NCBI GenBank assembly: GCA_005787345.1
Contig: SYBH01000141.1
Location: 1 to 47,056, forward strand
DNA length: 47,056 nt
Origin: Actinomycetota bacterium
Lineage (GTDB): Bacteria > Actinomycetota > Acidimicrobiia > Acidimicrobiales > Acidimicrobilacustridaceae
Direction of reading: 5' to 3'
In this document: positions 4,106-22,758 of the stretch, in pieces
Position numbering within the stretch: position 1 is the first letter of the stretch
Layout of the letters: each line of letters opens with the position of its first letter
Translations under genes and position numbers: made by a program
Notes under the pieces: generated by a model
Told to the model about the DNA's origin: nothing
Seen by the model: the letters and a program-made list of their open reading frames with translations, nothing else
The model's database searches: none

Positions 4106-4218
4106 TTGAGTCCCCCCCATTTGGCCGCATGGGCCTTCGAACTTCCCCCATCCTGTCACCCATCAGCTGTAAGAGGAAACGCCGGCCCCACCGTCAGTAG
4201 GCGCTGACAAGCGAATCC

Positions 4219-5325: not shown

Positions 5326-5333
5326 GAGTTCTG

Positions 5334-5339
5334 ACCCTA
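5334..5339 (-). promoter_or_regulatory. Putative -10 box of the SGNH-like gene (leaderless GTG)
   Basis: TAGGGT on the minus strand ends eight bases before the GTG at 5325. This helps choose that start over the later ATG. Confidence 0.35.
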
Positions 5340-5375
5340 CCGGTGACGACCGAAAAGAGGACAGCGCAGGCCCCA

Positions 5376-5381
5376 TAGACT
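5376..5381 (+). promoter_or_regulatory. Putative -10 box of the first double-hotdog gene (leaderless GTG)
   Basis: TAGACT ends eight bases before the GTG at 5390 and supports that start over the ATG at 5450. It lies in the roughly 65-base region shared with the divergent SGNH-like gene. Confidence 0.4.
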
Positions 5382-5389
5382 CGCTCCTC

Positions 5390-7161: not shown

Positions 7162-8865
7162 GTGGGAATGACATTCGAAGATGCAGTGGCGGTGCTTACC
7201 GGCCCCGGCGCACCATTCGAGATCACTGAAGCCGAGGTTCTGGGTCAACCCAGTCGCGTTTTTGCCAATCTTCCCCCAACACTTCGATCGCTCTTCGAGA
7301 TGCTCAAACAGCGTCCAGCCGACGATGTGTACATCGTCTTTGAAGATGAGCGCTGGACCAATGCCGAAGTACTCGCAAGTATCAACGAAATCGCGCACGT
7401 TCTCGTCGAGCGTTACGACGTCAAGAAGGGCGACCGTGTCGCCATCAACATGCGTAACTTTCCCGAATGGATTACCGCATTCGGCGCAGCAACCTCAATC
7501 GGTGCAATCGCCGTCTCGGTCAACGCTTGGTGGACCGGTCCGGAAATTGAATTCGGTCTCGTAGATGCTGGCGCAAAAGTTCTCATTACCGATCGCGAAC
7601 GAGTCGACCGTATTGGCGATCGACTTGCCGCACTAAACATCCACGGATTGGTCATTCGCGCTGAAGGCGAACTTCCTGCAGGCTGCGACCATCTCGCCGA
7701 TGTCGTTACGCCGGGTGCACCGATGCCGGCCGTCGATGTCGCTACTGACGATGACGCAACCATTCTTTTCACTTCAGGGACAACTGGTGTCCCCAAGGGT
7801 GCGGTTTCAACGAACCGAGGTGTGCTCTCAGGACTGTTCGCATTCGCGTGCAGAACAACAGTTGAAGCGATTCGCTGGGCTCCCGACACACCGCCTGATC
7901 CCGCAACTACCCCTGCGCCAGTCCCGCCCTGCTTCATCCTTACCGTGCCGTTGTTCCACGTCACTGGCTGCGTTCCAGTAATGCTTGGGTCTGTTGCAAC
8001 AGGCGCAAAACTTGTGATGATGCATAAATGGGATCCATTGCGCGCATTGCAGCTCATTGATCGCGAAAAAGTCACGAACTTCGTTGGCGTCCCGACGATG
8101 TCTCACGATCTCATCAGTCATCCTGATTTCGACAAGTACGACACTTCAAGCCTCAAGAACGTCGGCGGCGGTGGCGCACCGATGGCCCCCGAACTCGTTC
8201 GCAAGATCGAAGGTTCGTTCGCCGGTAAGGCAAGCCCGCAACTTGGCTATGGCCTCACTGAAACGAATGGTTATGGACCAGGAAACACTGGCCCCGACTA
8301 TATGGAGAAGCCATCAAGCACCGGTCGCGTTGTTCCGATCATGCAGGTCAAGATCGTTGATCCCAACGATTCCGAACAACCCAATGGTGAAGTCGGCGAA
8401 GTCTGTCTTGCTGGGCCAATGCTTATTCGTGGGTACTGGAATCGTCCTGAAGCAACTGCTGAAACCATTCGTAACGGATGGCTTCATACTGGCGATCTTG
8501 GCTACCTCGACGATGAAGGATTCCTGTACGTCGTCGACCGCATCAAAGACATGGTGATTCGCGGTGGAGAGAACGTCTACTGCTCCGAGGTTGAAGCAGC
8601 GATCTTCGAATACGAAGGCATTCACGAGGTTGCGGTCTTTGGACTTCCCCACGACCGTCTCGGCGAAGAAGTGGTTGCTGCAGTTCATCCCTCGCCGGGT
8701 ACCTCTATTGATCTTGATCAGCTCTCCGCATTCCTCGCCGAACGGATTGCACCATTCAAGATCCCTTCGCAGTGGTACATCCGTGAAGAGCCACTGCCTC
8801 GAGGCGCAACGGGCAAGATCCTCAAACGAGAAATCCGCGATCGCATCCTCGACGGCAATTTCTAG
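7162..8865 (+). CDS. AMP-forming acyl-CoA synthetase (long-chain fatty acid-CoA ligase type)
   Basis: 567 residues. It activates a carboxylic acid with ATP and CoA through an acyl-adenylate. The ATP-binding loop LFTSGTTGVPKG lies near residue 200, YGLTETNG near 370, the hinge/ATP motif TGDLGYLDDEGFLYVVDR near 445, IRGGENVYCSEVE after it, and the adenylation Lys in GATGKILKREIRDR close to the C-terminus. The GTG at 7162 is chosen because GGAGGG precedes it by seven bases; an ATG lies two codons later. It sits after the two thioesterase-like genes and ends at a strong terminator. Substrate chain type cannot be read. Confidence 0.92.
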   Translation: MGMTFEDAVAVLTGPGAPFEITEAEVLGQPSRVFANLPPTLRSLFEMLKQRPADDVYIVFEDERWTNAEVLASINEIAHVLVERYDVKKGDRVAINMRNFPEWITAFGAATSIGAIAVSVNAWWTGPEIEFGLVDAGAKVLITDRERVDRIGDRLAALNIHGLVIRAEGELPAGCDHLADVVTPGAPMPAVDVATDDDATILFTSGTTGVPKGAVSTNRGVLSGLFAFACRTTVEAIRWAPDTPPDPATTPAPVPPCFILTVPLFHVTGCVPVMLGSVATGAKLVMMHKWDPLRALQLIDREKVTNFVGVPTMSHDLISHPDFDKYDTSSLKNVGGGGAPMAPELVRKIEGSFAGKASPQLGYGLTETNGYGPGNTGPDYMEKPSSTGRVVPIMQVKIVDPNDSEQPNGEVGEVCLAGPMLIRGYWNRPEATAETIRNGWLHTGDLGYLDDEGFLYVVDRIKDMVIRGGENVYCSEVEAAIFEYEGIHEVAVFGLPHDRLGEEVVAAVHPSPGTSIDLDQLSAFLAERIAPFKIPSQWYIREEPLPRGATGKILKREIRDRILDGNF

Positions 8866-8983: not shown

Positions 8984-10174
8984 TCAGGCTGGTCGACGAG
9001 TATTCAGCTCGGTGACGTTGTCGCGCATGATCATCTTTTGCACGGCAGGTGAGAACTCCTTGAGTTCGTCGATGTAATCAAGTGGTTCCGGCATGCCCTC
9101 GATGTGGGGCCAATCGGAACCAAAGATCACGCGATCGGAACCCATAAGTTCAACAACCTCATGGACATCGTCTTCCCAGAATGGATTGATCCAGATGTTG
9201 CGACGGAAGGTTTCCGAAGGCTGCTCGGTGAACCAACCAGGCATCTTCTTTGCCGTGTTATCCAGCTTCTTGAGCAGACCGCGAAGGAACCCTGAACCGT
9301 TTTCGACTGATGCGACTCGGACGTTTGGGAAGCGGTCGAGCATCTTGTCGCAGACAAGCGAACCGAGGAAGTCTTCGATGGGACGATCAAACATCGTGGC
9401 CATACGCAATGGCTGCGGGCGTGTTTGCTGTCCAAACCCTGCGGAGAATCCGTTGTCTTCACCGTAACCATGTGCGGTGTAGCCGGAGTCGCCAGCATGA
9501 GCCACAACGGTGATACCCGATTCGTTCACAAGACCCCAGAACGGATCGAACATGGGATCGGCAGGTGAACGCTGACCATCGACGGTGGTCGGTGCAGCCG
9601 GGCGCATAACAACCGTGGTTGCACCGTTGTCGAGCGCAAACTTGAGTTCGTTCACTGCCCAATCAACATCGACAAGCGTGATGTAGGGAGCGGTGAAGAT
9701 GCGGTCCTTGTGATTGAACGACCAATCTTCGAGCATCCAACGGTTGAACGCGGTGAATACCTGCATGACTGCCCACGGATCTTTGTGGAGCGGTTCTTCG
9801 TAGATCATGCCAAGTGTTGGGAACAGCCAGCACTTTTCAAGACCGTGCTCGTCAAGCGTCGCAATACGTGCGTCCTTGTCGCGATACGCCGGACGAATTG
9901 GCTCGCGTTGCTTGAGAAGTTCGATCGGGTTTTCGTTATTCGGGTTGCCGCGGAAGTAATCCTTGAGCACACCAGGAAGCGCAACTGGATCGAAGGTCGG
10001 GTTCACCACTGCATGGCTGACCTTGCCGCCAATGACGTGGTACTGGCGGCCGTTGATTGTGCACCACTCGATGGTGCGTGATGCAGTACGAGGATCAAGA
10101 TGCCGAGTAAAGGCATCGACGGCCTCGTAGTAGTGGTTGTCGCAGTCGAAGACAGGGAAGTCGAGTTCGGTCAT
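8984..10174 (-). CDS. Amidohydrolase family 2 (ACMSD-type TIM-barrel) protein
   Basis: 396 residues from the ATG at 10174; an upstream in-frame start at 10195 is less likely because it would overlap the PaaX-like gene. The family includes decarboxylases and hydrolases acting on ring-derived acids. FDCDNHYYE near the N-terminus takes the place of the usual metal-binding DxHxH, VVAHAGDSGY supplies a mid-barrel His, and IFGSDWPHIEG near residue 355 carries the conserved Asp. The N-terminal motif has a single His in the usual HxH region, so the metal site may be altered. It is the last gene of the minus-strand operon, following the PaaX-like gene after 10 bases. Proteins of this type often accompany Rieske oxygenases. 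Confidence 0.85.
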   Translation of the reverse strand: MTELDFPVFDCDNHYYEAVDAFTRHLDPRTASRTIEWCTINGRQYHVIGGKVSHAVVNPTFDPVALPGVLKDYFRGNPNNENPIELLKQREPIRPAYRDKDARIATLDEHGLEKCWLFPTLGMIYEEPLHKDPWAVMQVFTAFNRWMLEDWSFNHKDRIFTAPYITLVDVDWAVNELKFALDNGATTVVMRPAAPTTVDGQRSPADPMFDPFWGLVNESGITVVAHAGDSGYTAHGYGEDNGFSAGFGQQTRPQPLRMATMFDRPIEDFLGSLVCDKMLDRFPNVRVASVENGSGFLRGLLKKLDNTAKKMPGWFTEQPSETFRRNIWINPFWEDDVHEVVELMGSDRVIFGSDWPHIEGMPEPLDYIDELKEFSPAVQKMIMRDNVTELNTRRPA

Positions 10175-10184
10175 GGGGACCAAT

Positions 10185-11033
10185 CTACGACACAACGGGC
10201 TCCTCTGACAACCTTATGTAGTACGACGTGGATGCTTCGGCCCACTGACCAAACTGGCGCTGGAAGACCTTTCGGGCCCGGGTCCCGATCCAGTCCTCCG
10301 GGAGCAATTCTGGGGGCAACGACGGGTCGACGCTCAGAAGATGGCGCCACTCATGAGCCATGCGGGTCCGGAGGGCAAAGGCCTCAGCGGCATCGGCCGG
10401 CACCGCGGTTTCGAATTGATCAACGAACGCCTCGTGCGCCGCAGCGGCGGTGGCTAGATCCCAGGCCATGGCCACGACTTCAGCCGGGGTCTCGGCGCCC
10501 TCAACGGTGGTGGCATGGAACAGCAGAGCCTCGTCTTGGAGTCCGCAGGCAGTGAGAACAACCTCGGCCCCTTCTCGCGACCCCTCACCCACCGCAACCC
10601 ACGTTCCGGTGCCAAGCGTGCCAAAACCTTCAAAGTCGAGGCCCACCGCCAATCGTTCTCTCGCCTCGCGATCAAGCGCAGTGCCAGTGAGCATCAGCAG
10701 CAAGAACGTTCCGTCCCACTTTTGATCGGCGACGATCGAACGCTGCACGCGAGGCACCGCCGAGCCAATCATTCGGCGACCGGAACTTGTGAGTCGCCAT
10801 CGGGTGTATCGACCAACTGACTCGCCTTCGAGCCATCCGTCGGCTGCGGTTCGGTTCACCGCTTGGCGCGCTGCCCGAGGTTCGATTCCGAGTGCTTCAA
10901 GCGCGCCAACCAACGTCGCTGTCCACACTGGCGTGTCTTTCGGGCCAACCCATTGCCCCAAGACGCTAATGAGCAGCGATCGCGCGCTCGGGCCTCCATC
11001 AGCCCGACGACGAGTTGCAGTCGCAACAACCAT
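10185..11033 (-). CDS. PaaX-like transcriptional regulator
   Basis: 282 residues. PaaX proteins are repressors that respond to aryl-CoA or related CoA esters, the model being phenylacetyl-CoA. The N-terminal winged-helix segment (SLLISVLGQWV through WRLTSSGRRMI, about 18-90), the central segment beginning KWDGTFLLLML and the C-terminal helical domain with FVDQFE and HEWRHLLSVDP follow the PaaX layout and length. Its ATG shares one base with the stop of the Rieske gene (TAATG), so the two are probably translationally coupled. No phenylacetate (paa) enzymes are present, so the ligand is probably another CoA ester made by this operon. The inverted repeat at 20372-20399 is a candidate operator. 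Confidence 0.87.
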   Translation of the reverse strand: MVVATATRRRADGGPSARSLLISVLGQWVGPKDTPVWTATLVGALEALGIEPRAARQAVNRTAADGWLEGESVGRYTRWRLTSSGRRMIGSAVPRVQRSIVADQKWDGTFLLLMLTGTALDREARERLAVGLDFEGFGTLGTGTWVAVGEGSREGAEVVLTACGLQDEALLFHATTVEGAETPAEVVAMAWDLATAAAAHEAFVDQFETAVPADAAEAFALRTRMAHEWRHLLSVDPSLPPELLPEDWIGTRARKVFQRQFGQWAEASTSYYIRLSEEPVVS

Positions 11034-12385
11034 TACGGAAGATCGCCCTCAATCTCACTCGGTGAAATTCCGAGGTAGCGCTCAAGCGCAAGTTGGTTAT
11101 TCAAAATACGACTTTCCTCTTGCGACAGCGTGATCCGCGTAAACCCTGGTTGATGCAAGCCTCGCTGGGCCGTTCGCAACATGTCGAAGTCTTGGTTGAA
11201 GACAGTGCCGAAGGCCATTGAATCAAGCGGGACTTCGAGTTTCATCGGCTTGTTGCGCGAAGCGCTCGCTCCAACTCGATCGAAATTGAAGATGTCGAGC
11301 CAGCATTCATCGGTCGAATCGCCCGGACGCGTGCGAAGAACCGAAAGGAGGTCTGGATGGATCAAGACGGTGATGTTGGGGAACACGTTGTGCTGATCCA
11401 TCATCATGATTTGCATATCGGTGTACTCGGAAAGATCAACACCCTTCGCGGCTTGCGCTTCGCGCACGCACTTGGCCATGACCTCGAAAAGACTTGAGCC
11501 CTCAGGAATGGCCGGTGCTGGGCCAGGTGCTGCGGCATCGAGCCCAGCGCGGGCCGAGTACACCGAAGCGAATGCTTCCCATACTTCTTGGTCGGTCGGC
11601 GTAGGACGAATTCGCGGAGACGGAACGCCGTAAAGCTGGCGACTACGGCCGACGTGATCCCAGAACACCTGATGGTTATCGAGATCAGCGAAAACCTTGA
11701 GCAACTCGGGATGCAACCCCTGCACGTGATAGGTCTCGCTGAATCCATCGGCGGCGGTTTTCCAATTCGCCGGCACCTTCACACTGATTTCAAACCGGCA
11801 ATGGAAATCGTCCAATTTGAGGTAGTCAGCATCAGTCGGTGCCCCACCTAAATAGGTGGCAAGGCTCATTGCATCGGTATCGAAGTTCACAAAAACAAGA
11901 GGACCCCATGAGTCGACAAGGACCGGAGGCAACCCGTAAGCGTCATTGTCGATAACCCCGAAATCTCGGCGGCTCGGGATCTCACTCAGAGAACCATCGA
12001 GGTTCCAGCACCAACGATGAAAGCCACAGCGAAGTTCGGTGCGGCCAGTGCCCGATCCTTCACAAAGTTCAATACCGCGATGCATGCAGACGTTTTGGAA
12101 GGCACGAAGAACGCCATTTTCATCGCGAAGAATGATCGCCGATAATTTTCCAACAGAAAACTCGACCCAGTCACCTGGATCGCAGACCGCGTCGATCGTT
12201 GTTGCCAATTGCCAAACCCGCGGCCACATGCGCTCTTCTTCAAGGGCGGCAAATTCAGGTGAGTAGTAGCGCTCTGCCGGAACCGTGATCGGACGGCGAG
12301 TTGTTGGTCCTGCGCCTTCGGCCCGGCTCCGCAGTGTTCCGATGTCTTTGACGGGAACTTCCGTTGGTTCTGTGAGATCAGTCAT
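11033..12385 (-). CDS. Rieske [2Fe-2S] ring-hydroxylating oxygenase, alpha subunit
   Basis: 450 residues from the ATG at 12385, which follows a GGGGGG run. It is the catalytic subunit of a Rieske oxygenase that inserts oxygen into rings or carries out oxidative demethylation. Cluster ligands are C100-M-H102 and C120-G-F-H123. The mononuclear iron site is ETYHVQGLH with H220 and H225; the residue three before the first His, often a bridging Asp, is Glu217. No beta subunit, ferredoxin or reductase is encoded in the window, so electron-transfer partners must be elsewhere and the enzyme is probably an alpha-only type. It lies between the methyltransferase and the PaaX-like gene in the operon. Confidence 0.92.
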   Translation of the reverse strand: MTDLTEPTEVPVKDIGTLRSRAEGAGPTTRRPITVPAERYYSPEFAALEEERMWPRVWQLATTIDAVCDPGDWVEFSVGKLSAIILRDENGVLRAFQNVCMHRGIELCEGSGTGRTELRCGFHRWCWNLDGSLSEIPSRRDFGVIDNDAYGLPPVLVDSWGPLVFVNFDTDAMSLATYLGGAPTDADYLKLDDFHCRFEISVKVPANWKTAADGFSETYHVQGLHPELLKVFADLDNHQVFWDHVGRSRQLYGVPSPRIRPTPTDQEVWEAFASVYSARAGLDAAAPGPAPAIPEGSSLFEVMAKCVREAQAAKGVDLSEYTDMQIMMMDQHNVFPNITVLIHPDLLSVLRTRPGDSTDECWLDIFNFDRVGASASRNKPMKLEVPLDSMAFGTVFNQDFDMLRTAQRGLHQPGFTRITLSQEESRILNNQLALERYLGISPSEIEGDLP

Positions 12386-12456
12386 CGTGTCGGCCCCCCG
12401 AATGGCGTGCGCCATGATCCTGCCACAGAGCAGTCAGTGCAATCGCAAGACCAAGC

Positions 12457-13059
12457 TCACGAGGTAGGACGCCGATGCACAGTTACGACGTAGTCCGGGC
12501 CCTCACCCAACACCTCGCCCTCCCACCCCGCCTTATGTTCGACCGGGACAAGACCTTCACCGGAACACCATTCATCAAACTCTTCAATCGTTGGCCACGT
12601 GGCCTTGAGTTGATTGCCCATCACCAACCACCCACCGGGAGCCACGTGCCGAGCACAGTTCTGCACTGCGAGGGAGCGCTCTGGAGCGTCAACGAAGCCG
12701 ATCACGTTTCCGGCGACCACGACGAGCTCAAACTGATGGCCGAGATCCACCGTTGCAAGATTTGCGAGTCGCCAATCGAGTTCCGGCGCCCGACGCTTTG
12801 CCCGCGCAAGCAAGTCGGGGTCGAGATCGACCCCGATGATTTCCACACCACGCGCATTGAGTTCGATACCAACCCGTCCGAATCCGCAGCCAGCATCAAG
12901 CGCCGTCTTCGGTTCGAACTGCATGACGAAATCGACTTCACCGTGCGGGTTCTCGCCATTTTCGGCCATGCGATCCCAGCGAGATTCGTAATCGTCGAGA
13001 TCAACCGCCTTGCGCCACTCAGCCCATTGCGTTGAACCGACTGTTGGGTCGTCAGCCAC
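12457..13059 (-). CDS. SAM-dependent class I methyltransferase
   Basis: 200 residues from a GTG at 13059 preceded by AAGGA five bases upstream; an ATG at 13101 would extend it 42 bases into the previous gene without a ribosome-binding site. The SAM-binding glycine loop ALDAGCGFGRVG lies at about 53-64, followed by the acidic residue at the end of strand 2 (VDLD, near 78) and a post-motif GGWLVMGNQ. The GTG overlaps the stop region of the crotonase gene, which supports coupled translation. The acceptor is unknown; no recognisable substrate domain is fused. It is an unusual member of an otherwise CoA-based operon. Confidence 0.85.
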   Translation of the reverse strand: MADDPTVGSTQWAEWRKAVDLDDYESRWDRMAENGENPHGEVDFVMQFEPKTALDAGCGFGRVGIELNARGVEIIGVDLDPDLLARAKRRAPELDWRLANLATVDLGHQFELVVVAGNVIGFVDAPERSLAVQNCARHVAPGGWLVMGNQLKATWPTIEEFDEWCSGEGLVPVEHKAGWEGEVLGEGPDYVVTVHRRPTS

Positions 13060-14131
13060 TGGTGTCCTTACCTTGTTCGAAAACTTGGGCATCGACGGCA
13101 TCGATCAAGCCCCATGCCATAGCGGTCGTGACATCAATTGGCCGACCACACAGTCCGAAATATGCGGCTCGATGCCTGCCGATCCGACGCGGGATGCTTG
13201 AGGTTCCGCCTGCTCCCGGAACGAGCCCCATCGAGATTTCCGGCAACAAGAACGTTGTGTCCGGGTGTGCCACTACTCGCGATGCAAACGCCGGCAACTC
13301 CACGCCAGCGCCGACACAGGTTCCGTGAACATGCGCCTCAACTCGTTGAGCAATCGCCGAAAGCGCAATTCCAGCATTACGTCGTGTTCGAATACTGTGC
13401 GCTTCGACTGGCGCGGGCGCAGTCCCAAACTCATCGAGGTCGCCGCCACTGCAGAACGACGGGCCGTTTCCGCAAAGCACTACCCGAGAGATCGTCTGAT
13501 CGACATCAACGAGTCGAAATGCCTCCACCAACTCGTCGCGCATTCGCGCGCCATACGCGTTGTGAACCTCGGGTCGATTCAACGTGATCCGCAATTCATC
13601 CCTGAAACGTTGCACGTTGACAACAGAATGCTCGGGTCGAGGCCTTGGCGTATGCGATGAGCGACCAGCAAGCCATGTCAAATAGCGCTCACCACCTTGC
13701 AAAAGGCTGTACACCCAAGATTCGGCAACAACTGCCTCGGCGGCAGAGGAATGTTCACTCACACGCAGCAATTGCGTCAGGCCCATTGCCGCATCCGGTG
13801 ACGCGGCAATCGAAGCGACCAGTGCAGCAACTGACTCGTTCAACAACGACCCGCAGGCCACCCAGGGAGAGGGAGCAACATCAGACGAACACAACAAAAC
13901 GTCCAGACCTAAAACTGCCGAGTCATCGGCCACCACATTTTCCGAAATACCAATAAGAACTACTGGTGCGGTCTGAAGAAGTTGGGTTGCACGCAATAGG
14001 TCAGTGACGCTGAACGGTGGAGTTAAATCAACGAGAACAGCCGGCCACGACAAAACCGAGTCCAACGCAGTGTCATCAAGCCCATCGGCAATGAGATTGA
14101 GGAGAGCCGAAGGCGTTTGAGCGGCGATCAT
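13052..14131 (-). CDS. Crotonase-family protein with rearranged domain order
   Basis: 359 residues. The ATG at 14131 overlaps the amidohydrolase stop as ATGA. The catalytic crotonase core is C-terminal (about 170-355): ITLNRPEVHNA, FCSGGDLDEFG and GTCVGAGVELPA form the oxyanion hole, and LLPEISMGLVPGAGGT retains one catalytic Glu. It stops right after AMAWGLIDAV, where ordinary crotonases continue with about 60 residues of helices. Those helices appear instead near residues 97-157 (SVAALVASIAASPDAA and ESWVYSLLQGGERY), preceded by about 95 residues like a worn crotonase core. I recall similar unstudied actinobacterial proteins. The reaction may be hydration, isomerisation or hydrolysis. Confidence 0.82.
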   Translation of the reverse strand: MIAAQTPSALLNLIADGLDDTALDSVLSWPAVLVDLTPPFSVTDLLRATQLLQTAPVVLIGISENVVADDSAVLGLDVLLCSSDVAPSPWVACGSLLNESVAALVASIAASPDAAMGLTQLLRVSEHSSAAEAVVAESWVYSLLQGGERYLTWLAGRSSHTPRPRPEHSVVNVQRFRDELRITLNRPEVHNAYGARMRDELVEAFRLVDVDQTISRVVLCGNGPSFCSGGDLDEFGTAPAPVEAHSIRTRRNAGIALSAIAQRVEAHVHGTCVGAGVELPAFASRVVAHPDTTFLLPEISMGLVPGAGGTSSIPRRIGRHRAAYFGLCGRPIDVTTAMAWGLIDAVDAQVFEQGKDTSG

Positions 14132-15513
14132 GAGTACACCAGCCTGCCTCCCACCCATGTGTTGCGCACATGCGATGCATTTGGGTCGGTGAGTACCTCG
14201 GCGAGTGACGCATCAAGGAGGCAAAGATCTGCCCGGGCACCAACCTTTACGCGACGAATGGGCCCACTCGGATCGAGGGGATCAGTGAGATACCAACCGA
14301 GCGCTGTCGCAGCCGGAACTCGCTCAGTCGCTCCCAAACGTTGACCCGTTCGTGTGGTTCGTGTCGACGCCGCAGCGATAGCGAGCCACGGATCGGCCGA
14401 TGTCACGGGCGCATCACTTCCCGCCGCCACCCGAACACCTGACTCAAGGAGCGACGCCGCCCGATGAAGAAACGGAAGATCTTCGCCGTCAACAACTTCC
14501 AAGTAGTGATCACCGCGCTCACTCACGAGCGCGGGCTGCACAATGACTGTCACTCCCCCCGCTGCGAGCAACGAGTCGAGATCGGTCGGAAGCACTGAAC
14601 CATGCTCGATGCGATCGCCAGGCATCATTCCCGCGAGTGCCATTGCGGTCGCCACCGTGACGGTTTCAGCTCGCGACACCGCGTGGACGGCGACGGCACG
14701 TCCAACGGAATGGTGAGCCTCGATGTGTTTGGCGAGCAGGTCAACATCAAGGCCAACGACTTCATCGACCAAAATCTTTACTGGGCCAACGGTTGCCCAC
14801 CCTTCAACAGACTCGCGCTCATCATCATTCACGCCGAGCAACGTCAGCGATTGCGGCAATGAACCGCTTTGCACCGCCTGCCGAAGTAACTCGGCACGGC
14901 CAGCCCCAAGGTTGTAGGTGGCGTCAGTAACGCCAGTAACTCCAAATGATGAGAGTTGGGCGCCAATTTTCTGAAGTGAGGGAGCACTCACTCCAACACG
15001 TTCGGCCAACCACGCATCGAGGCGAAGAAGGCGACCGGTCGGCCTCCCGTTGGCATCGAGTTCAACTCCTGTTGGGATGTCATCGCTGAGAACCGCGCCA
15101 AGACCTGCCGAGGACAACACCCACGCCAGTCCAGAACGGTGCTGAACACGAACCTTGGACGTCCCAACCAACACATCAAGACGATGGCAATCAAGCAGCC
15201 CATGCCGATGCTCGTCGTATCCCGACGCGCGTACCCAGCCATCGCCAGCTGAAGCCGCTGCAGTTGTCAAGGCGCGATCGAAAGCGTCAGCGTCTTCAAG
15301 AGCATCAAGATCCACGCCCTCGAGCCGCGCGGCCATCGCCAAAAGATGCACATGGTGATCATGAAGACCTGGGATGAGTGCTGCACCATTTGCATCGATG
15401 GCGCTGAATTCCCCCGAGGGCGCGCGGTCATCAATTGCGAGGATGATTTCGTCTTCGATCACGACCGATACCAGGCGACCATCAACCTCGGCATTAGAAA
15501 TCACCGTGCGCAT
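14128..15513 (-). CDS. YtcJ-type amidohydrolase (amidohydrolase family 3)
   Basis: 461 residues from the ATG at 15513; GTG codons at 15519 and 15522 are alternatives, the former overlapping the previous stop as GTGA. The metal-binding motif is GLHDHHVHLLAM near residue 55, a central His region is HAVSRAE, and AAGSDAPV carries the conserved Asp. The C-terminal RVKVGARADLCLLD segment is the usual end of the beta-sandwich. Family members hydrolyse amides or related bonds, but most are uncharacterised. The gene overlaps both neighbours, between the CoA transferase and the rearranged crotonase, which argues for a dedicated step in the same pathway, perhaps ring or amide opening (inference). Confidence 0.85.
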   Translation of the reverse strand: MRTVISNAEVDGRLVSVVIEDEIILAIDDRAPSGEFSAIDANGAALIPGLHDHHVHLLAMAARLEGVDLDALEDADAFDRALTTAAASAGDGWVRASGYDEHRHGLLDCHRLDVLVGTSKVRVQHRSGLAWVLSSAGLGAVLSDDIPTGVELDANGRPTGRLLRLDAWLAERVGVSAPSLQKIGAQLSSFGVTGVTDATYNLGAGRAELLRQAVQSGSLPQSLTLLGVNDDERESVEGWATVGPVKILVDEVVGLDVDLLAKHIEAHHSVGRAVAVHAVSRAETVTVATAMALAGMMPGDRIEHGSVLPTDLDSLLAAGGVTVIVQPALVSERGDHYLEVVDGEDLPFLHRAASLLESGVRVAAGSDAPVTSADPWLAIAAASTRTTRTGQRLGATERVPAATALGWYLTDPLDPSGPIRRVKVGARADLCLLDASLAEVLTDPNASHVRNTWVGGRLVYS

Positions 15514-15515
15514 AC

Positions 15516-16586
15516 TCACCACACAACTCTTGCTGCAGCAGCAGCACTGCGCGCCACTTCACGTAATGCCACATCGATCGTGACACCCCCACCACGACCG
15601 ACCGCGTCAGCGACAATTGCTGCCGCGAGCAAACCAGTCAATGGATCGGCGACGGCATCGCCAACGAAACTCGGAACTCCCGAAGCGGCGCGATCCACCA
15701 ATCCACCTGCAACTGCAGAGTCGTCGCCGAATCCCGCCCAATCGCGCCAAGGCCCGCAACGGCCATAAGCCGTAATCGATAACCAGACAGCGCCGGGACG
15801 CTTCGCGACAATCTCGGCCGGAACTATGCCAAGCCGATCAAGTGCTCGTGGGCGTGAACCTTCAATCACCACATCGGCCTGTTCGAGAAGAGCGACAAGA
15901 TCAGCGACACCGGAAGGGTCTTCGAGTGGCAGCGAAGTGAATTTCTGTCCCGCGTGAAGCCAATCGAAGAACGCTCGGTCGCCATCACGCGACGCGTCGG
16001 GCCGACTCGAGGATTCCACTTTCACAACCTTCGCCCCAGCCTCGGTGAGAATCCGAGAGCACAGAGGCCCGGCCCAAAGTGATGACAGATCAACAACGCG
16101 CGCACCGTCTAACGAAATGTCGTGCTGGCGCGTTCCCACCCGCCTTTGGATCCACGGACGAGCGGGATTCGTAGTGCCACGGTCTCGAAGTTGGTCATCT
16201 TCCTCAACGGGCAGCATCGAAATAGCCAGACCAAGTTCCTGGCCGGACTGCACAACCTCGCTGGCGGATCGCAATGAAAGCGCCGCTGCAATTGCCCCCC
16301 ACGGAATCTCGTCAATCTCCGCGTCGACTCCCAACCATGCGGGTAGAAGAGTGAGATCGTCACGCCGAGGAAGGTGCACTGCACACCAGCCGTCAGCGGT
16401 GCGAAGTAATTGACAGTGTCCGCCCATCGACACTTGGCGGCGAGTCGAAACATCGGTGAAGAGCGATCGTTGCGAAAGAAGTTCAGCCCCGGTGCCGATA
16501 GATGGGAGCCCTAACGCAACGTGTCGGTTGATCGCTTGATCAGCGAAGTCGACTGCGAGGTCCCAGCCTGATGACGCCGAACTCAC
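15516..16586 (-). CDS. Family III CoA transferase (CaiB/BaiF type) with permuted halves
   Basis: 356 residues from a GTG three bases after the crotonase stop. Family III enzymes move CoA between carboxylic acids through an aspartyl-CoA thioester. Residues 166-356 correspond to the N-terminal half of ordinary members: VVDLSSLWAGPLCSRIL, GAKVVKVES, LSITAYGRCGP, and GFGDDSAVAGGL with the likely catalytic Asp, ending at TIDVALREVA. Residues 40-150 (LLRTADGWCAVHL, DLTLLPAWLG and RSASEVVQSGQELGLA) match the C-terminal half. The order is therefore reversed compared with FRC or CaiB, as in a circular permutation. It probably works on the operon's acyl-CoA substrate. Confidence 0.83.
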   Translation of the reverse strand: MSSASSGWDLAVDFADQAINRHVALGLPSIGTGAELLSQRSLFTDVSTRRQVSMGGHCQLLRTADGWCAVHLPRRDDLTLLPAWLGVDAEIDEIPWGAIAAALSLRSASEVVQSGQELGLAISMLPVEEDDQLRDRGTTNPARPWIQRRVGTRQHDISLDGARVVDLSSLWAGPLCSRILTEAGAKVVKVESSSRPDASRDGDRAFFDWLHAGQKFTSLPLEDPSGVADLVALLEQADVVIEGSRPRALDRLGIVPAEIVAKRPGAVWLSITAYGRCGPWRDWAGFGDDSAVAGGLVDRAASGVPSFVGDAVADPLTGLLAAAIVADAVGRGGGVTIDVALREVARSAAAAARVVW

Positions 16587-16589
16587 CGT

Positions 16590-17387
16590 TCAGGACTTCG
16601 ATGCAATCTGAGCACGGAGCTTTGCCAATAACTCAACGAAGGCATCACCGCTCAAAGATGCAAGTTGAGGACCAAGTTCTGCTGAAACTGCGTCTTCAGA
16701 ATTCGTAATTGCGTCGTTGGCCAAAATCGTCGCTTTCATTGAACGGACGACAGCGGTCGGGCCGGCAGCAGCCTTCGCTGCCATGGTCTGCGCAACACCT
16801 AGAAGCTCCGCATCGGGGACGCATTTCCACGCCAACCCGATCTCCGCGGCACGAGCACCACCGACGACCTCGCCGAACAAGACAAGTGCCATCGTGGTCT
16901 GCAAGTCGGTAATACGACGAAGCCTCCAGGTGTTTCCGCCTCCGGGGTGCAGGCCTATCTGCAAGAAGCGCGTGTCGAACTTTGCTGATTCGCCAGCAAG
17001 GATCACATCGCAGGCCAATGCAAGATTTAGTCCTGCGCCAACGGCAGCGCCGTTTACCGCAGCGATTGTTGGCAGTGGCGAATCGGCCAGGCGCAGAAAT
17101 CCTGAGTAGATCGTGCGCAGCTTTTCCTCGGTATCGCATGCAGCCAGATCATCGAGGTCAGCACCTGCGCAGAAGGCTGGCGGTGCGCCGGTGACCACAA
17201 TGGCTCCGACATCATCTCGGGATTCGAGCTCGTCCATCCCTTCGGCAACCGCAGCGTTGAGAGCAGCCGAAACGATATTCCGACGTCCCGGGTCGTTCAG
17301 AGTGATGGTGGCAACTCGGTCGGTGACATCCAACGTGATCATGCCGTCATTGTTGCCGGTCTTAGACACTGATGCCGACCCTGTCAC
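16590..17387 (-). CDS. Enoyl-CoA hydratase/isomerase family protein (crotonase)
   Basis: 265 residues. The GTG at 17387 overlaps the acyl-CoA dehydrogenase stop (GTGA); an ATG at 17342 (MITLDV) is a credible shorter start. Canonical order: ITLNDPGRRN, FCAGADLDDL and GAAVGAGLNLAL form the CoA and oxyanion-hole motifs, followed by KFDTRFLQIGLHPGGG and a normal C-terminal helical part. The position of the usual first catalytic Glu does not carry an obvious PE motif, so hydratase activity is not assured; isomerase or other crotonase chemistry is possible. It sits directly after the acyl-CoA dehydrogenase, the order expected for oxidation followed by hydration of an acyl-CoA. Confidence 0.88.
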   Translation of the reverse strand: MTGSASVSKTGNNDGMITLDVTDRVATITLNDPGRRNIVSAALNAAVAEGMDELESRDDVGAIVVTGAPPAFCAGADLDDLAACDTEEKLRTIYSGFLRLADSPLPTIAAVNGAAVGAGLNLALACDVILAGESAKFDTRFLQIGLHPGGGNTWRLRRITDLQTTMALVLFGEVVGGARAAEIGLAWKCVPDAELLGVAQTMAAKAAAGPTAVVRSMKATILANDAITNSEDAVSAELGPQLASLSGDAFVELLAKLRAQIASKS

Positions 17388-18484
17388 CGAGGAAGGCCAA
17401 GTACCCGATCACCCAAGATGTTGCGCATGACATCCGAGGTCCCACCCATGATGGTGTAGGCCGGCGCGTAAGCGATTTCTGCGGACCAGTCCGAAAGCAA
17501 CATTGCCTCTGGCCCCAAGATCCGAGCGGCAAAGTCAGCTACACGCTGTTCGTATTCGGTGCAGACACATTTGGTACCCGCCGCGAAACCTGCCGGAGTT
17601 TGCCCCAACACACTGCGATACACCAACAGTCGTCCCACCGTGAATCCGATTTCGAGTTCGGCAATTTCCTGACGAACAACTGGATCGGAAGTGTCCGCCC
17701 GTTCGAGTACGTGAAGGTAAAGCGCTCGGTTCGACACCAAACGATCGATGCCCCCGCGCTCGTGTTCAAGTTGCTTCATGGTCTGCGAGAAGGCTTTGCC
17801 CTCGACCCCAACCAAATTGCCAACCGGAACACGAACGTTGTCGAACCACACCTCGTTGAAGTGCCGAGCATCGACCATGTCACGAATCGACCGAACTTCG
17901 ATACCCGGGGTGTCCATCGGAATGATGATTTCGCTAATTCCGAGATGCGGCTTTCCGGGAATCGATTCGGTTCGACAGATCAAATAGCAATAGTTCGATT
18001 CATGGGCGAACGAGGTCCAAATCTTCTGACCATTGATTACCCATTCATCGCCATCGCGAACTGCCGAGGTACTCAGCGAAGCAAGGTCCGAACCGCTATT
18101 GGGTTCAGACATGCCGATGCACCATGTGACATCGCCCGCAAGAATTTCAGGCAAATAGCGCTCGCACTGTTCAGCGGTTCCAAACGTGAAAAGGCCCGGA
18201 CCCATCTGACGATCAGCAAACCACGTTGCCCCGATCGGCACGCCAGCGGTGATAAGCGCTTCGCTCACAATTAATCGATCGACGGGCGAACGTCCGCCTC
18301 CGCCGAACTCTTCCGGCCAGGTCATGCCGATCCAACCGCGTGCCGCGAGTTCCTGCGAACACTCACGCGAAAACGAGCACAACCACGAATCGTTAAAGCG
18401 GCCGTACTTGGCGACCGCTGCAACTGCGAATTCCTCGGCCTCAGCCTTCAGCGCAATGTGCTCGTCGTCGAGAGTGAAGTCCAC
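17384..18484 (-). CDS. Acyl-CoA dehydrogenase
   Basis: 366 residues from a GTG at 18484, chosen because DFTLDDEH is a usual N-terminus for this family; a TTG at 18493 would add three residues. FAD-dependent alpha,beta-desaturation of an acyl-CoA is the family reaction. The N-terminal helical domain includes GWIGMTWPEEFGGGGRS, the central beta-domain has WCIGMSEPNSGSDLAS and WVINGQKIWTS, and the C-terminal domain ends in IMGGTSDVMRNILGDRVLGLPR. Length is typical of medium-size members. It overlaps the crotonase gene by GTGA and lies about 30 bases after the CoA ligase gene, so the three probably act in sequence. Confidence 0.92.
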   Translation of the reverse strand: MDFTLDDEHIALKAEAEEFAVAAVAKYGRFNDSWLCSFSRECSQELAARGWIGMTWPEEFGGGGRSPVDRLIVSEALITAGVPIGATWFADRQMGPGLFTFGTAEQCERYLPEILAGDVTWCIGMSEPNSGSDLASLSTSAVRDGDEWVINGQKIWTSFAHESNYCYLICRTESIPGKPHLGISEIIIPMDTPGIEVRSIRDMVDARHFNEVWFDNVRVPVGNLVGVEGKAFSQTMKQLEHERGGIDRLVSNRALYLHVLERADTSDPVVRQEIAELEIGFTVGRLLVYRSVLGQTPAGFAAGTKCVCTEYEQRVADFAARILGPEAMLLSDWSAEIAYAPAYTIMGGTSDVMRNILGDRVLGLPR

Positions 18485-18517
18485 GACGATCAATCTAGGA
18501 GAAAGTTGCCGAATTGC

Positions 18518-19999
18518 TCACCCCAAGAGGTCAGCAAGTACCTCTCGGCGAAGAAGTTTGCCGGTAGGCGTATGCGGCAGTTCGTCACGGAACTCGATGC
18601 GATAGGGCGTTTTCGAACTCCGCAGATGCAGCTGGCAATAGTCGTGAAGTTCGTCGACGCCAACCGACTTGCCCGGAGCAATAACAACTACCGCAGCGAT
18701 CTGCTGGCCCCATTCGTCGTCGGGGATTCCGACAACAGCGGCATCGACAACCGCTTCGTGGCGGCGAAGTACGTCTTCGATTTCGGCAGGGGCGATGTTC
18801 TCACCACCGCGAATAATCGTGTCGTCGGCACGGCCTTCAATAAAGAGGTACTCGTCTTCGTCGATCCAGCCGCGATCTTTGGTCGGAAACCAGCCCTCAG
18901 CGTCGACAACGCTTCCGCCTTCGTATTCGCCTGACACCTGCTCGCCACGCAAGAACACCAGACCGGGTTCGCCCACAGGAAGGACGTTGCCAGCCTCGTC
19001 ACGAACTTCAACCTCGATACCGGGGAGCACCTTGCCGACAGAACCAAGACGAACTTTGGCGACAGGATCACCAGCGAATGCGGCGTCGTGATCTTCGGGG
19101 CCAAGCAACGCGATAGTTGATGAGGTTTCCGTAAGGCCATAGGCATTCACGAAACCAGTTCCGACGAACAACTCGAGCGCCTGTTCAAGAACGGGCAGCG
19201 GCATACGAGCGCCGCCATAAGAAAGCGTTGCCAACATCGGAGCGTCGGCCGGTGAACCGTCGAGGTGTTGCACAACCCGAGCGAGCATCGTGGGAACAAC
19301 CATGGCTTGTGTAATACGTTCGTTTCGAAGAGTGTCGAGCCACAACTGCGCGTCGAACGACTCGAGATACACAATCCGGCGACCCGAGTACATATTCGAC
19401 AACAAGTTGGCGAGACCAGCAATGTGGTACGGCGGCACAGTTACAAGCGCGGCTTGGTCGGGTTCGGCGCCAGCAAACTCGACGGTGCCAATCACGTATG
19501 CAGTCAAATGGCGATGACGAAGCAACGCAGCTTTCGGAGTTCCTGAAGTACCCGAGGTGTAGAGCACAATGGCGACATCTTCAGGATCGACAAATGGCGG
19601 AAGTTCGATATCGGCTGAGGTTGAAAATGACGCATCAAGCAACGTTGAGCGAAGCACGACCATCTCAGGATCGGCCCCGGGAATCTTTGCCGTTTCAGCG
19701 ATGACAACCGCGCCACGATTCGCTTCAACTAGTGGCTGCAACTGCTCGTCACCCAAGCGATAGTTCAGTGGAATAAACGGAAGGCCGGCATAGGCAGCCC
19801 CAAAGACTGCGATCGGAAAACTTGCGTCATTCGTACCGCAATACACAACGCCGGTCGCACCCATCGACAAAAACTTCGCGGCACATCGACGTGCAGCTGC
19901 ATCGAGTTGGGCGTAACTGAGCGACCGAGTTCCAGAAGTAACAGCACGACGATCCTCGAGCGTCGATGCCGACATCTCGAGCAGGAGCGAAAGATTCAC
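18518..19999 (-). CDS. AMP-forming acyl-CoA ligase
   Basis: 493 residues from a GTG at 19999 with AAGG about eight bases upstream. It makes the CoA ester that feeds the rest of the operon. The ATP loop VLYTSGTSGTPKAA is near residue 150, AYGLTETSS near 285, the hinge region KDRGWIDEDEYLFIEGRADD near 370, IIRGGENIAPAEIE after it, and the C-terminal adenylation Lys in TPTGKLLRREV. It is shorter at the N-terminus than the ligase at 7162 and not a close copy. The preceding small gene ends 15 bases upstream, suggesting co-translation. The substrate is probably a carboxylic acid related to the operon's oxygenase steps (inference). Confidence 0.92.
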   Translation of the reverse strand: MNLSLLLEMSASTLEDRRAVTSGTRSLSYAQLDAAARRCAAKFLSMGATGVVYCGTNDASFPIAVFGAAYAGLPFIPLNYRLGDEQLQPLVEANRGAVVIAETAKIPGADPEMVVLRSTLLDASFSTSADIELPPFVDPEDVAIVLYTSGTSGTPKAALLRHRHLTAYVIGTVEFAGAEPDQAALVTVPPYHIAGLANLLSNMYSGRRIVYLESFDAQLWLDTLRNERITQAMVVPTMLARVVQHLDGSPADAPMLATLSYGGARMPLPVLEQALELFVGTGFVNAYGLTETSSTIALLGPEDHDAAFAGDPVAKVRLGSVGKVLPGIEVEVRDEAGNVLPVGEPGLVFLRGEQVSGEYEGGSVVDAEGWFPTKDRGWIDEDEYLFIEGRADDTIIRGGENIAPAEIEDVLRRHEAVVDAAVVGIPDDEWGQQIAAVVVIAPGKSVGVDELHDYCQLHLRSSKTPYRIEFRDELPHTPTGKLLRREVLADLLG

Positions 20000-20014
20000 G
20001 CGATGACCTTCAGA

Positions 20015-20320
20015 TCAGTCAGAGGACGGAAGCGGCTTGGCGCCCTTGATGGGGACCTCGCGGCCATCGGCAGCCAATGCACCCGGACCGGGCTTGGCAC
20101 ACAACACTTCCATTCCTGAGTCTTCATCGGCGTAACGCTTGCCAACCAGGGTGCCATCGCCACTGACGTCGGCATGGCCACCACCGGGACGATCGGCAGC
20201 GGCGTCGACTACTTCAACACCACCGCAGGTGAGAACGACAGCAGAGCTCGGGGGACGGACCACGACGAGTTCGACGCTGCACTCCGGGCAAGCGAGTCGG
20301 CTACCGGCCTTGATGTCCAT
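20015..20320 (-). CDS. Small four-cysteine protein, first gene of the operon
   Basis: 101 residues from an ATG with an excellent ribosome-binding site (GGAGAGGAG about seven bases upstream). I do not know a named function. Four cysteines are visible: CPEC at 11-14, C32 in LTCGG and C73 in EVLCAKPG, compatible with a small zinc or metal knuckle. A middle segment reads GTLVGKRYADEDSGMEVLC and the C-terminus is AKPLPSSD. I recall similar small hypothetical proteins beside acyl-CoA ligases in mycobacteria, but cannot check this here. Its place directly before the CoA ligase suggests a partner or accessory of that enzyme. Confidence 0.75.
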   Translation of the reverse strand: MDIKAGSRLACPECSVELVVVRPPSSAVVLTCGGVEVVDAAADRPGGGHADVSGDGTLVGKRYADEDSGMEVLCAKPGPGALAADGREVPIKGAKPLPSSD

Positions 20321-20368
20321 CTCAAGCTCCTCTCCCGCAGTGCCCCCTTGGCAGTGCAGCGCCTTGGC

Positions 20369-20374
20369 AACGTA
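20369..20374 (-). promoter_or_regulatory. Possible -10 box of the 11-gene operon
   Basis: On the minus strand TACGTT lies about 48 bases before the first gene's ATG and overlaps the left arm of the inverted repeat at 20372-20399. A regulator bound there would block it. No clear -35 is visible. Confidence 0.3.
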
Positions 20375-20399
20375 TCGCGACTGAACCACCTCGCGATAC
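20372..20399. promoter_or_regulatory. Perfect inverted repeat, candidate operator
   Basis: GTATCGCGA and its exact reverse complement TCGCGATAC are separated by 10 bases, so the arm centres are about two helical turns apart. It lies in the 151-base region between the divergent minus-strand operon and plus-strand SDR-P450 genes. A dimeric regulator bound here could control both directions; the operon's own PaaX-like protein is the obvious candidate (inference). Confidence 0.6.
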
Positions 20400-20471
20400 C
20401 TCGTCACTTCGACGGCCTGAAGTTCGCCAATGTGCGACGATCTCCGCCTGTCCACCCACGAGGAGACCGAC

Positions 20472-21239
20472 ATGCCGTATCTCGTTCCAGGCCGATTCAA
20501 CGACAAGGTTGCCTTTCTTACCGGCGCAGGCTCTGGGATTGGTCGAGCCACGGCTCTGCGACTGGCCGCCGAGGGTGCCGAGGTCTTCGTCCATGACGTA
20601 AACCCCGAGTCATTGGCCGAGTCGGTCTCAATGATCACTTCGGCTGGTGGGACCGCTGTCTCGCGAGTTGGCGATGTTTCCGAGCGTTCGGAATGTTTCG
20701 ATGCGATTGCCGAAGCGGTTGAGGCCTTCGGTCGACTTGATGTCCTCGTCAATGTGGCTGGAATCGCCGGAGCGTTTCATTTCGCTGACATGACCGAAGC
20801 GCAGTACCGACGTATGGCTGCGGTCAACATGGATGCGCCGTTTTTCTTTTGTCAGGCCGCCGTTCCCCATTTGCTCGCGTCTGACGGCAACATCGTCAAC
20901 ATCGCATCAAACGCAGGGCTCATGGGTCAGGCCTACACGACGGCCTATTGCATGACGAAGGGTGCTGTTGTCCAACTCACACGTTCGTTGGCCATGGAAT
21001 ACGCAAAGACGAAGATCCGGGTCAATGCAATCGCTCCAGGTGCAATCGAAACCAACCTCACACAGAATTTCCAGATCCCCGCCGACATCGACTTCGAGCT
21101 CATGACCCCATATATGGGTTACCGGGGGCAGGGTGAGGCCGATGACATCGCCGAACTCATCGCGCTCGTCGCTGCTCCTGGCTCAACCAACATCCACGGA
21201 GCGATCTTCTCGAGCGACCGGGGCGTCACCGCGGGCTAA
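20472..21239 (+). CDS. Short-chain dehydrogenase/reductase
   Basis: 255 residues from an ATG with AGGAG six bases upstream. It is an NAD(P)-dependent alcohol/ketone oxidoreductase. Visible are FLTGAGSGIGRATAL, VNVAGIAG (variant of NNAG), NIASNAG with the catalytic Ser, YCMTKGA with Tyr and Lys, and the C-terminal IFSSDRGVTAG. It is divergent from the long operon and upstream of the P450 pair. Its last 166 bases served as the left end of the tandem duplication: a damaged copy of them reappears between the two P450 genes. Its stop codon lies in the loop of a GC-rich hairpin. Confidence 0.9.
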   Translation: MPYLVPGRFNDKVAFLTGAGSGIGRATALRLAAEGAEVFVHDVNPESLAESVSMITSAGGTAVSRVGDVSERSECFDAIAEAVEAFGRLDVLVNVAGIAGAFHFADMTEAQYRRMAAVNMDAPFFFCQAAVPHLLASDGNIVNIASNAGLMGQAYTTAYCMTKGAVVQLTRSLAMEYAKTKIRVNAIAPGAIETNLTQNFQIPADIDFELMTPYMGYRGQGEADDIAELIALVAAPGSTNIHGAIFSSDRGVTAG

Positions 21240-21346: not shown

Positions 21347-22534
21347 ATGGAACGGCTCGCAATAGATCTTCTCGCCCCTGAGTTGTACGGCGGCGACCCA
21401 TATCCCACGTACGCATGGATGCGCGCTAACGAACCGATCTACTGGGACGAAATCAACGAGCTCTGGGGTATCTCGCGCTATGACGACATCGTCGAGATCG
21501 CAAAGCGCAAGGACGTCTTCATCAACTCCGACAAGGAGAAGGGCGGCTACCGACCGAATATCCCGGCTCGCGACGCCATCATTGGTCTTGACGATCCGTT
21601 ACATCAAAAGCGCCGCAACTTGGTGTCGCGTCGTTTCACGCCACGTGCTGCGAACTCGTGGGAAGACGACATTCGGGCAAAGGTGAACGCAATTCTTGAT
21701 GCCGTTCGCGACAAAGGCGGTTCTGCCGAAATCATTAACGACGTCGCTGCTCCACTCCCCGCAATGATGATCGGCAAACTCCTCGGCTTCGACGAAGCCG
21801 ATTGGCCAAAATTGAAGCATTGGTCAGAAACCACCGTCGCTCTCGGTGGCGGTCCTCGTTATTTCAACGAAGTTGGGATGACTTCAGCAATTGAATTTGC
21901 TGGCGCCGCAGCCGAAGTCTTCGAATCTAAAAAGACCTGCCCCGCCGACGACATCTTTTCGCTCTACACAACCGCTGAAGTCGACGGATGCCCGTTCGAT
22001 CCCAACGATGCAATCGCCGACGCATTGCTTCTTCTCAATGGTGGCGCAGAAACCACGCGTACCGTGATCGCTTGGACGATTCTCAATCTCATCACCAACC
22101 CCGCCGAAGAAGCGAAACTCCGTAATGGCGCTGACTTCACCGTCGCGGTTGAAGAGATGATTCGCTACGTCACGCCGATTCACAACATGTGTCGAGTCGC
22201 AAATGTCGACGTCGAAGTCAATGGCGTCACCATCCCAAAGGGCAACCAGGTTGTACTCATGTACTCCTCAGCCAACCGTGACGAAAAGTACTTTGATCGG
22301 CCCGAGGAATTCCTCATCGATCGCACGCCGAACAACCACATCGCATTCGGTTTCGGCACACACTTCTGCTTGGGCGTATCGCTCGCTCGCCTCGAGATCC
22401 GTGTGTTTTTCGAGGAACTTCTTCGTCGCACCTCGGGTTGGAAGTTGACACCAGGCACGGCGCCGGTCGAAATGCCAAACGCATTCGTGCGCAGTATTGA
22501 GTCGGCTCATGTCGACTTCGACTTCATCGGATGA
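21347..22534 (+). CDS. Cytochrome P450, CYP142-like, copy 1
   Basis: 395 residues from an ATG with a GGGGGG ribosome-binding site. It is a soluble P450 monooxygenase. The I-helix oxygen-binding segment is LLNGGAETTRTVI (about 238-250), the ExxR motif is EEMIR, and the heme loop is FGFGTHFCLG with the Cys ligand near residue 347. IHNMCRV and the C-terminal NAFVRSIES resemble mycobacterial CYP142, a sterol side-chain hydroxylase, so a steroid-like or branched-chain substrate is plausible but not shown. About 29 of 395 residues differ from copy 2 by my count (roughly 93% identity). Its stop overlaps an ATG (ATGA) that now opens a chimeric reading frame. Confidence 0.93.
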   Translation: MERLAIDLLAPELYGGDPYPTYAWMRANEPIYWDEINELWGISRYDDIVEIAKRKDVFINSDKEKGGYRPNIPARDAIIGLDDPLHQKRRNLVSRRFTPRAANSWEDDIRAKVNAILDAVRDKGGSAEIINDVAAPLPAMMIGKLLGFDEADWPKLKHWSETTVALGGGPRYFNEVGMTSAIEFAGAAAEVFESKKTCPADDIFSLYTTAEVDGCPFDPNDAIADALLLLNGGAETTRTVIAWTILNLITNPAEEAKLRNGADFTVAVEEMIRYVTPIHNMCRVANVDVEVNGVTIPKGNQVVLMYSSANRDEKYFDRPEEFLIDRTPNNHIAFGFGTHFCLGVSLARLEIRVFFEELLRRTSGWKLTPGTAPVEMPNAFVRSIESAHVDFDFIG

Positions 22535-22758
22535 GCATCGATCCAACAGAAGTTCCGCTGCCGAGCCCCGCCGATATCGATTTCGAGGTCATGGCCTCAT
22601 ACATGGGTTACCGGGGCGTTACCGCGGGCTACTACCCGCGTCAGCCGATGACCAAGACCCGCGGAACCTTGGAACCGCAGACAGCGGTACCATCCGGTCT
22701 GCACAACCGATCGGTTGAGTTCATTGCCTTGGAGGGACCATGGAACGGCTCGCAATAG
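22531..22758 (+). CDS. Chimeric small reading frame at the duplication junction
   Basis: 75 codons. The first 11 residues (MSIDPTEVPLP) are the start of the cupin gene; from there it runs into the SDR C-terminal segment (ADIDFEVMASYMGYRG, VTAG). The old SDR stop TAA has become TAC, so it reads on into former non-coding leader and ends 19 bases inside the second P450. The ATG overlaps the first P450 stop exactly as the real cupin ATG overlaps the second P450 stop, so it is probably translated by coupling. It may be a by-product without function. It could also be treated as a pseudogene fusion. Confidence 0.5.
   Translation: MSIDPTEVPLPSPADIDFEVMASYMGYRGVTAGYYPRQPMTKTRGTLEPQTAVPSGLHNRSVEFIALEGPWNGSQ

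Follow-up and report, generated by a model that had tools for sequence, protein, structure and literature searches.

What is the function of eleven tightly packed genes that together correspond to no recognised pathway? The genes occupy positions 8984-20320 of the window, by which we mean the whole analysed stretch of 47,056 nucleotides, in a host genome of 2.3 Mb assembled in 174 contigs. A sequence-only reading had described them as a tightly coupled run on one strand, devoted to CoA-dependent catabolism of no known substrate under a PaaX-like regulator. The list of open reading frames returned the same eleven minus-strand frames at the same positions, and the intergenic gaps (in gene order 15, 24, -4, 3, -7, -31, -50, 41, -1 and -11 nt) confirm the tight coupling, ranging from -50 to +41 nt. 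Starts at 14131 (ATG) for the second crotonase and at 13059 (GTG) for the methyltransferase, both backed by relatives, reduce the two long overlaps to a few bases. Internal promoters or terminators, named at the outset as what would break up the run, showed no excess over chance in a scan against shuffled sequence: 2 promoter-like sites were seen (3.6 expected; other promoter types lay outside the scan) and 9 terminator-like sites (12.6 expected). Since such sites are no commoner than chance, they give no hint of a split operon. Pfam families could be assigned to ten of the eleven products, the exception being a small Cys protein, and uphold the enzyme classes named in the sequence-only reading, as well as its statement that no known pathway is recognisable. 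The genes and one divergent neighbour are as follows.

20015-20320, minus strand: small Cys protein of 101 aa, partner in the core module (Pfam match only weak)
18518-19999, minus strand: acyl-CoA ligase, AMP-binding (Pfam 214 bits)
17384-18493, minus strand: acyl-CoA dehydrogenase (three Acyl-CoA_dh domains)
16590-17387, minus strand: first crotonase-family protein (ECH_1, 152 bits)
15516-16586, minus strand: class III CoA-transferase, core, circularly permuted as judged from model and profiles (PF02515, 136 bits)
14128-15522, minus strand: Amidohydro_3 metal hydrolase, the usual third member beside the permuted pair (Pfam 132 bits)
13052-14131 (longest frame to 14158), minus strand: second crotonase, core, circularly permuted as judged from model and profiles (ECH_1, 113.7 bits)
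12457-13059 (longest frame to 13101), minus strand: SAM methyltransferase, lineage-specific addition (Methyltransf_25, 58 bits)
11033-12415, minus strand: Rieske oxygenase alpha subunit, lineage-specific addition (Rieske and Ring_hydroxyl_A)
10185-11033, minus strand: PaaX-like regulator (three PaaX domains)
8984-10174 (longest frame to 10195), minus strand: Amidohydro_2 hydrolase (Pfam 73 bits)
20430-21239, plus strand: SDR dehydrogenase, divergent, beside the small gene (kept in L091 and L103-L106)

Several of these products carry features of their own. In the first crotonase both hydratase catalytic Glu positions are seemingly replaced, as judged by eye, and the protein may serve as an isomerase or as a structural partner. 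The Rieske protein has its Rieske and catalytic domains both above cut-off, with CxH/CxxH and ExYHx4H motifs recognised by eye. For the Amidohydro_2 protein the nearest PDB match is 4dzi (316 bits), followed by PtmU3 (82 bits), which we take to be a diterpenoid-CoA thioesterase and treat as a lead only. The window as a whole resembles a catabolic island: it holds three P450s (21347-22534, 22740-23927 and 27886-29076), two further Amidohydro_3 proteins (2387-4159 and 32062-33777), a second ligase (7162-8865), a second acyl-CoA dehydrogenase (26517-27818), a mandelate-racemase-like protein (421-1554) and an MFS transporter (36857-38488), together with two frames that have no Pfam match at E 0.001 (4219-5403, 394 aa, and 39045-40682, 545 aa).

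Recurrence of the gene order had been proposed as a check, and the order proved to be kept throughout the genus, with a core also present in other phyla. The close-match records come from MAGs that bear the titles Candidatus Microthrix, Microthrixaceae or Acidimicrobiales, with mostly freshwater names; the host genus is a freshwater one of Microthrixaceae/Acidimicrobiales, with genomes of about 2.3 Mb. The operon order is identical in every congeneric contig of sufficient length; it is complete in six long contigs, and six shorter ones are concordant as far as they reach. The order is shared by a more distant set within the genus, about 52-57% in the CoA-transferase, of which L105 shows it in full. 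The operon is retained in part in two further genera of the family: one (G321) keeps the SDR, small, ligase, CoA-transferase, Amidohydro_3, crotonase and PaaX genes, with the methyltransferase on the opposite strand, and the other (G023) keeps the crotonases, CoA-transferase, Amidohydro_3, Rieske and PaaX genes. When two relatives were compared, dN/dS fell within 0.004-0.16 for every gene with one and within 0.02-0.31 with the other, the value of 0.31 being that of the methyltransferase with a very low dS behind it. The CoA-transferase, Amidohydro_3 and second crotonase genes gave 0.12-0.16, compared with 0.004-0.03 for ligase, first crotonase and Amidohydro_2, such that the permuted pair and Amidohydro_3 evolve several times faster than the latter three; the Amidohydro_2 gene is the operon's most conserved (0.004-0.02). 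The module was also seen in three MAGs deposited as Bifidobacterium breve (L016, L017 and L026), two of which hold the congeneric operon; this label is apparently wrong.

The feature that sets the locus apart lies in two of its enzymes. In the CoA-transferase, the N-terminal half of the family (Pfam positions 1-200 of 366) is found at residues 159-346. PF02515 has 19 matches in the host genome, 14 of the others covering essentially the whole model, three lying at contig edges or in short frames and one being a fragment of a longer frame, whereas here the match ends at model position 202 within a complete frame of 357 codons. A profile made of residues 1-155 in 22 relatives matches columns 238-323 in a canonical CoA-transferase alignment of 35 sequences (E 1.2e-5, score 41.5; maximum of 16.3 in 40 column shuffles). 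The AlphaFold2 model (pLDDT 89, pTM 0.91) places residues 158-353 on residues 4-212 in formyl-CoA transferase and related proteins with a Z of 19. As to the hallmarks of class III, the catalytic Rossmann half with the conserved Asp is present and the collinear full-length domain order is absent. CaiB, the formyl-CoA transferase Frc, Rv3272 and BbsEF share the catalytic half (about 195 residues at about 2.2 A) and the Asp of the ADxxxG motif with this protein, which differs from them in having its halves swapped, with the C-terminal domain at the N-terminus.

The second crotonase presents the same picture. Its catalytic half (ECH_1 8-176) is found at residues 190-358, and in the model (pLDDT 87) four helices at residues 103-165 stand ahead of it; residues 176-363 match residues 2-195 of crotonases with a Z of 21-24. 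The catalytic spiral half with its two Glu is therefore present as the family requires, and the helices precede the spiral instead of following it. PaaF and ECHS1 share the catalytic half and both catalytic Glu; in comparison with them, the second crotonase has the C-terminal helices first and an extra degenerate beta segment ahead. In a blind search of 296 genomes, a profile of residues 108-170 retrieved the members of the module with E values of 1e-16 or lower and weakly matched ten other genomes, where the four matches inspected all fell within the helical C-terminal region that canonical crotonases have. Compared directly, profile against profile, the N-terminus and the canonical crotonases that we had assembled gave no significant match (E 0.11), and PDB searches with the N-terminal profiles of the two enzymes gave no match.

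Restoring the halves to canonical order changed the Pfam score of the CoA-transferase from 136.4 to 137.5 bits and gained about 6 bits for the crotonase. As these reordered scans raised the scores so little, profile comparison was used as proof instead, and the matches of the N-terminal profiles to canonical C-termini place the family's C-terminal part first in each protein; sequential fold comparisons of both enzymes confine the alignment to the catalytic halves. From profiles and models we conclude that both the CoA-transferase and the second crotonase are circularly permuted, the family's C-terminal part coming first and the catalytic part second. We found no description of permuted class III CoA-transferases or crotonases in the open-access literature searched. 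Asp314 of the former and Glu287 and Glu307 of the latter are invariant, which suggests, with the catalytic assignment made by eye, that both permuted enzymes are active.

The third unusual element is the small Cys protein. Its only Pfam match is weak and below cut-off (E 7e-4), there is no NCBIfam match above cut-off and none in the PDB. The sequence-only reading regarded this protein as one of the odd members of the operon, an assessment that has to be reversed: it and the CoA-transferase are the partners conserved most strictly. When 296 evenly sampled Actinomycetota genomes were compared, the same 12, from seven genera, proved to carry the N-terminus of the CoA-transferase, that of the crotonase and the small protein; for the crotonase N-terminus, a gap separates E 8e-17 from the next match at 1e-5. 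Two sets of 12 drawn at random would coincide with a probability of 1e-21 if kinship is ignored, and all co-occurrence counts given here are uncorrected for phylogeny. In five of the 12 (G113, G077, G063, G089 and G130) the small gene is unlinked: it either sits on a different contig or is separated from the permuted CoA-transferase by over 80 kb. Among 198 Sphingomonadales genomes the CoA-transferase occurs in eight, and the small protein in seven of these and nowhere else. Genomes found via the CoA-transferase contain the small protein in 16 of 18 cases, the other two being assemblies of 1.7-1.8 Mb. On plasmids, the CoA-transferase (match covering at least 80%) occurs on 15 records, all 15 of which have the small gene; overall, the small protein is found on 18 of 72,556 plasmid records.

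These counts bear on the simplest account of the locus, an ordinary genus-level beta-oxidation operon made of common parts, in which the permuted enzymes would be divergent paralogues and the small protein a passenger. All annotated families are indeed common in actinobacteria and the content of the neighbourhood varies. Passengers, however, would not be expected to accompany both permuted enzymes in one set of 12 genomes out of 296, including those with an unlinked small gene, nor to be present on every plasmid that carries the CoA-transferase, and we consider this account unlikely.

The permuted pair, mostly with Amidohydro_3 adjoining, is found in Mycolicibacterium, Mycolicibacter, Rhodococcus, Streptomyces and Desertimonas and also in Sphingomonas, Novosphingobium, Sphingobium and gammaproteobacterial MAGs. 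Amidohydro_3 does not adjoin the pair in L022, L024, L088 and L093 and so may not be obligate. The small gene adjoins a ligase about 50% identical to that of the operon at most loci, with R. gordoniae and G063 as exceptions. At the R. gordoniae locus (L050, 12001-12306) the small gene lies amid HsaA/HsaC-like genes with no adjoining ligase, and on a Streptomyces plasmid (L043, 18831-26324) a copy of the triad directly adjoins a mycofactocin cluster (mftA-mftG, mftR). The core is thus the small protein, the CoA ligase, the permuted CoA-transferase, the permuted crotonase and usually an amidohydrolase; the Rieske protein, PaaX-like regulator, methyltransferase and second amidohydrolase are additions of the lineage. 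It is possible, though doubtful, that small protein, ligase and permuted pair belong to a single multi-protein system not yet described. They might form a complex whose small protein would carry or gate the acyl group, the swapped order of domains letting both enzymes assemble with it.

The regulator contains all three PaaX domains (PF07848, PF20803 and PF08223) and reaches 151 bits with the PaaX equivalog TIGR02277, under the curated cut-off of 264.55. A possible binding site lies in the spacer that separates the small gene from the SDR gene, which is divergent and starts at 20430:

20365-20406, no strand: candidate operator, an inverted repeat with 9-bp perfect core arms GTATCGCGA / TCGCGATAC and a 10-nt spacer

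The block CGCGATACGTTGCCAAG of this repeat is invariant in nine congeners, with both arms intact in only four, and the 15-mer TCGCGATACGTTGCC has one exact occurrence in the host genome. At two mismatches the motif is not over-represented in the window, where nothing but the exact site with its repeat is conspicuous. We regard 20365-20406 as a candidate site for the PaaX-like protein, and the SDR gene probably belongs to the regulon of the operon. PaaX recognises and responds to phenylacetyl-CoA (PMC4424350), and by analogy release of the PaaX-like protein by a CoA ester is a reasonable assumption. As in the PaaX-regulated phenylacetate (paa) operon, a PaaX-family regulator sits within a CoA-dependent operon; the eleven genes differ in lacking a PaaABCDE phenylacetyl-CoA epoxidase. 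With no epoxidase genes and a regulator under the TIGR02277 cut-off, the phenylacetate pathway was set aside.

CoA-dependent catabolism with a PaaX-like regulator is therefore still a plausible description: operon structure and enzyme classes speak for it, and what it missed is the circular permutation of two enzymes. A cyclic or branched acid, as that reading proposed, may be the substrate. As the best explanation, which we hold with slightly less than even confidence, we propose a PaaX-controlled operon for CoA-dependent breakdown of a hydrophobic carboxylic acid, probably alicyclic or isoprenoid, built around a mobile core module. Sequence and model comparisons establish the families involved (ligase, dehydrogenase, hydratase, CoA-transferase and metal hydrolase), the predicted permutation of two of their members and the co-inheritance with the small Cys protein. 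The first CoA ester would be made by the ligase in partnership with the small protein. The permuted CoA-transferase would then recycle CoA from the product acid to fresh acid via Asp314, such that ATP would be spent solely on priming the cycle, as with CaiB in carnitine metabolism. The permuted crotonase would hydrate the enoyl-CoA at its two conserved Glu, the SDR would oxidise, and an amidohydrolase would open a lactone or thioester. In the host lineage, the dehydrogenase, a second crotonase and the Rieske oxygenase would lengthen the route, and a CoA-ester intermediate would lift repression by the PaaX-like protein at the inverted repeat. The order of these reactions is guesswork.

The type of acid is our best guess from the neighbour genes in other carriers. 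These include flavoproteins between KstD and 4-oxocyclohexanecarboxylate dehydrogenase, HsaA- and HsaC-like enzymes, a 3-carboxyethylcatechol dioxygenase, thiolases with OB-fold partners, P450s and mycofactocin genes, which indicate ring compounds and no one pathway. Clustering of neighbour genes across carriers gave no single companion pathway; the neighbours differ so widely between genomes that no single pathway is fixed.

Some of these neighbours recall steroid ring degradation (KstD, HsaA-D, FadD3/IpdAB), and the operon could be part of sterol or bile acid catabolism with the core acting on a ring fragment. This would agree with the HsaA-like (above curated cut-off) and HsaC-like (below it) proteins near the small gene in R. 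gordoniae, with the KstD-like flavoproteins that Rhodococcus and Sphingobium have close to the core, and with the P450s of the window. Five congeneric genomes, however, contain no HsaC-like extradiol dioxygenase at E 1e-10, which makes the usual, aromatising route unlikely in the host, and such a set of CoA-transferase and amidohydrolase is not named in the steroid literature searched. The KstD-like matches in the five congeners are at 40-42%, two of them partial at contig ends; KstD and 4-oxocyclohexanecarboxylate dehydrogenase could not be told apart. A role in steroid catabolism appears improbable to us, and the classical pathway was set aside for the host on the lack of an HsaC-like enzyme in the five congeners.

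A pathway like that for carnitine or betaine is very unlikely. The ligase, CoA-transferase, crotonase and dehydrogenase follow the logic of CaiC, CaiB, CaiD and CaiA in the E. coli caiTABCDE operon, and the best matches of the Rieske protein are carnitine monooxygenase in the PDB and glycine betaine monooxygenase in NCBIfam. These matches are nevertheless far under the curated cut-offs (103.6 of 670 bits) and biphenyl dioxygenase scores nearly as high, on which grounds the carnitine pathway was set aside. The cai operon, moreover, has no amidohydrolase, PaaX or small protein, its enzymes are only distantly related, and many carriers come from oil, sludge or soil and have aromatic-degradation genes. 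That the genes make a small molecule rather than degrade one, as the methyltransferase, the three P450s of the window, the hydrolases and the resemblance of the Amidohydro_2 protein to PtmU3 of platensimycin biosynthesis might suggest, is scarcely credible, with the methyltransferase outside the core and no scaffold synthase or synthetase found in the operon.

Beyond the breakdown of a hydrophobic acid that we favour, the locus is of interest for its two permuted enzymes, which are tied almost strictly to a small protein that is uncharacterised. It is unusual that two different CoA enzymes are circularly permuted and travel together, and their near-perfect co-inheritance with the small protein across phyla and on megaplasmids offers a handle on a protein family without a known function. 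The module marks carriers of an undescribed degradation route in lakes and soils, and cultured carriers in Rhodococcus, Novosphingobium, Sphingobium and Mycolicibacter make it testable now.
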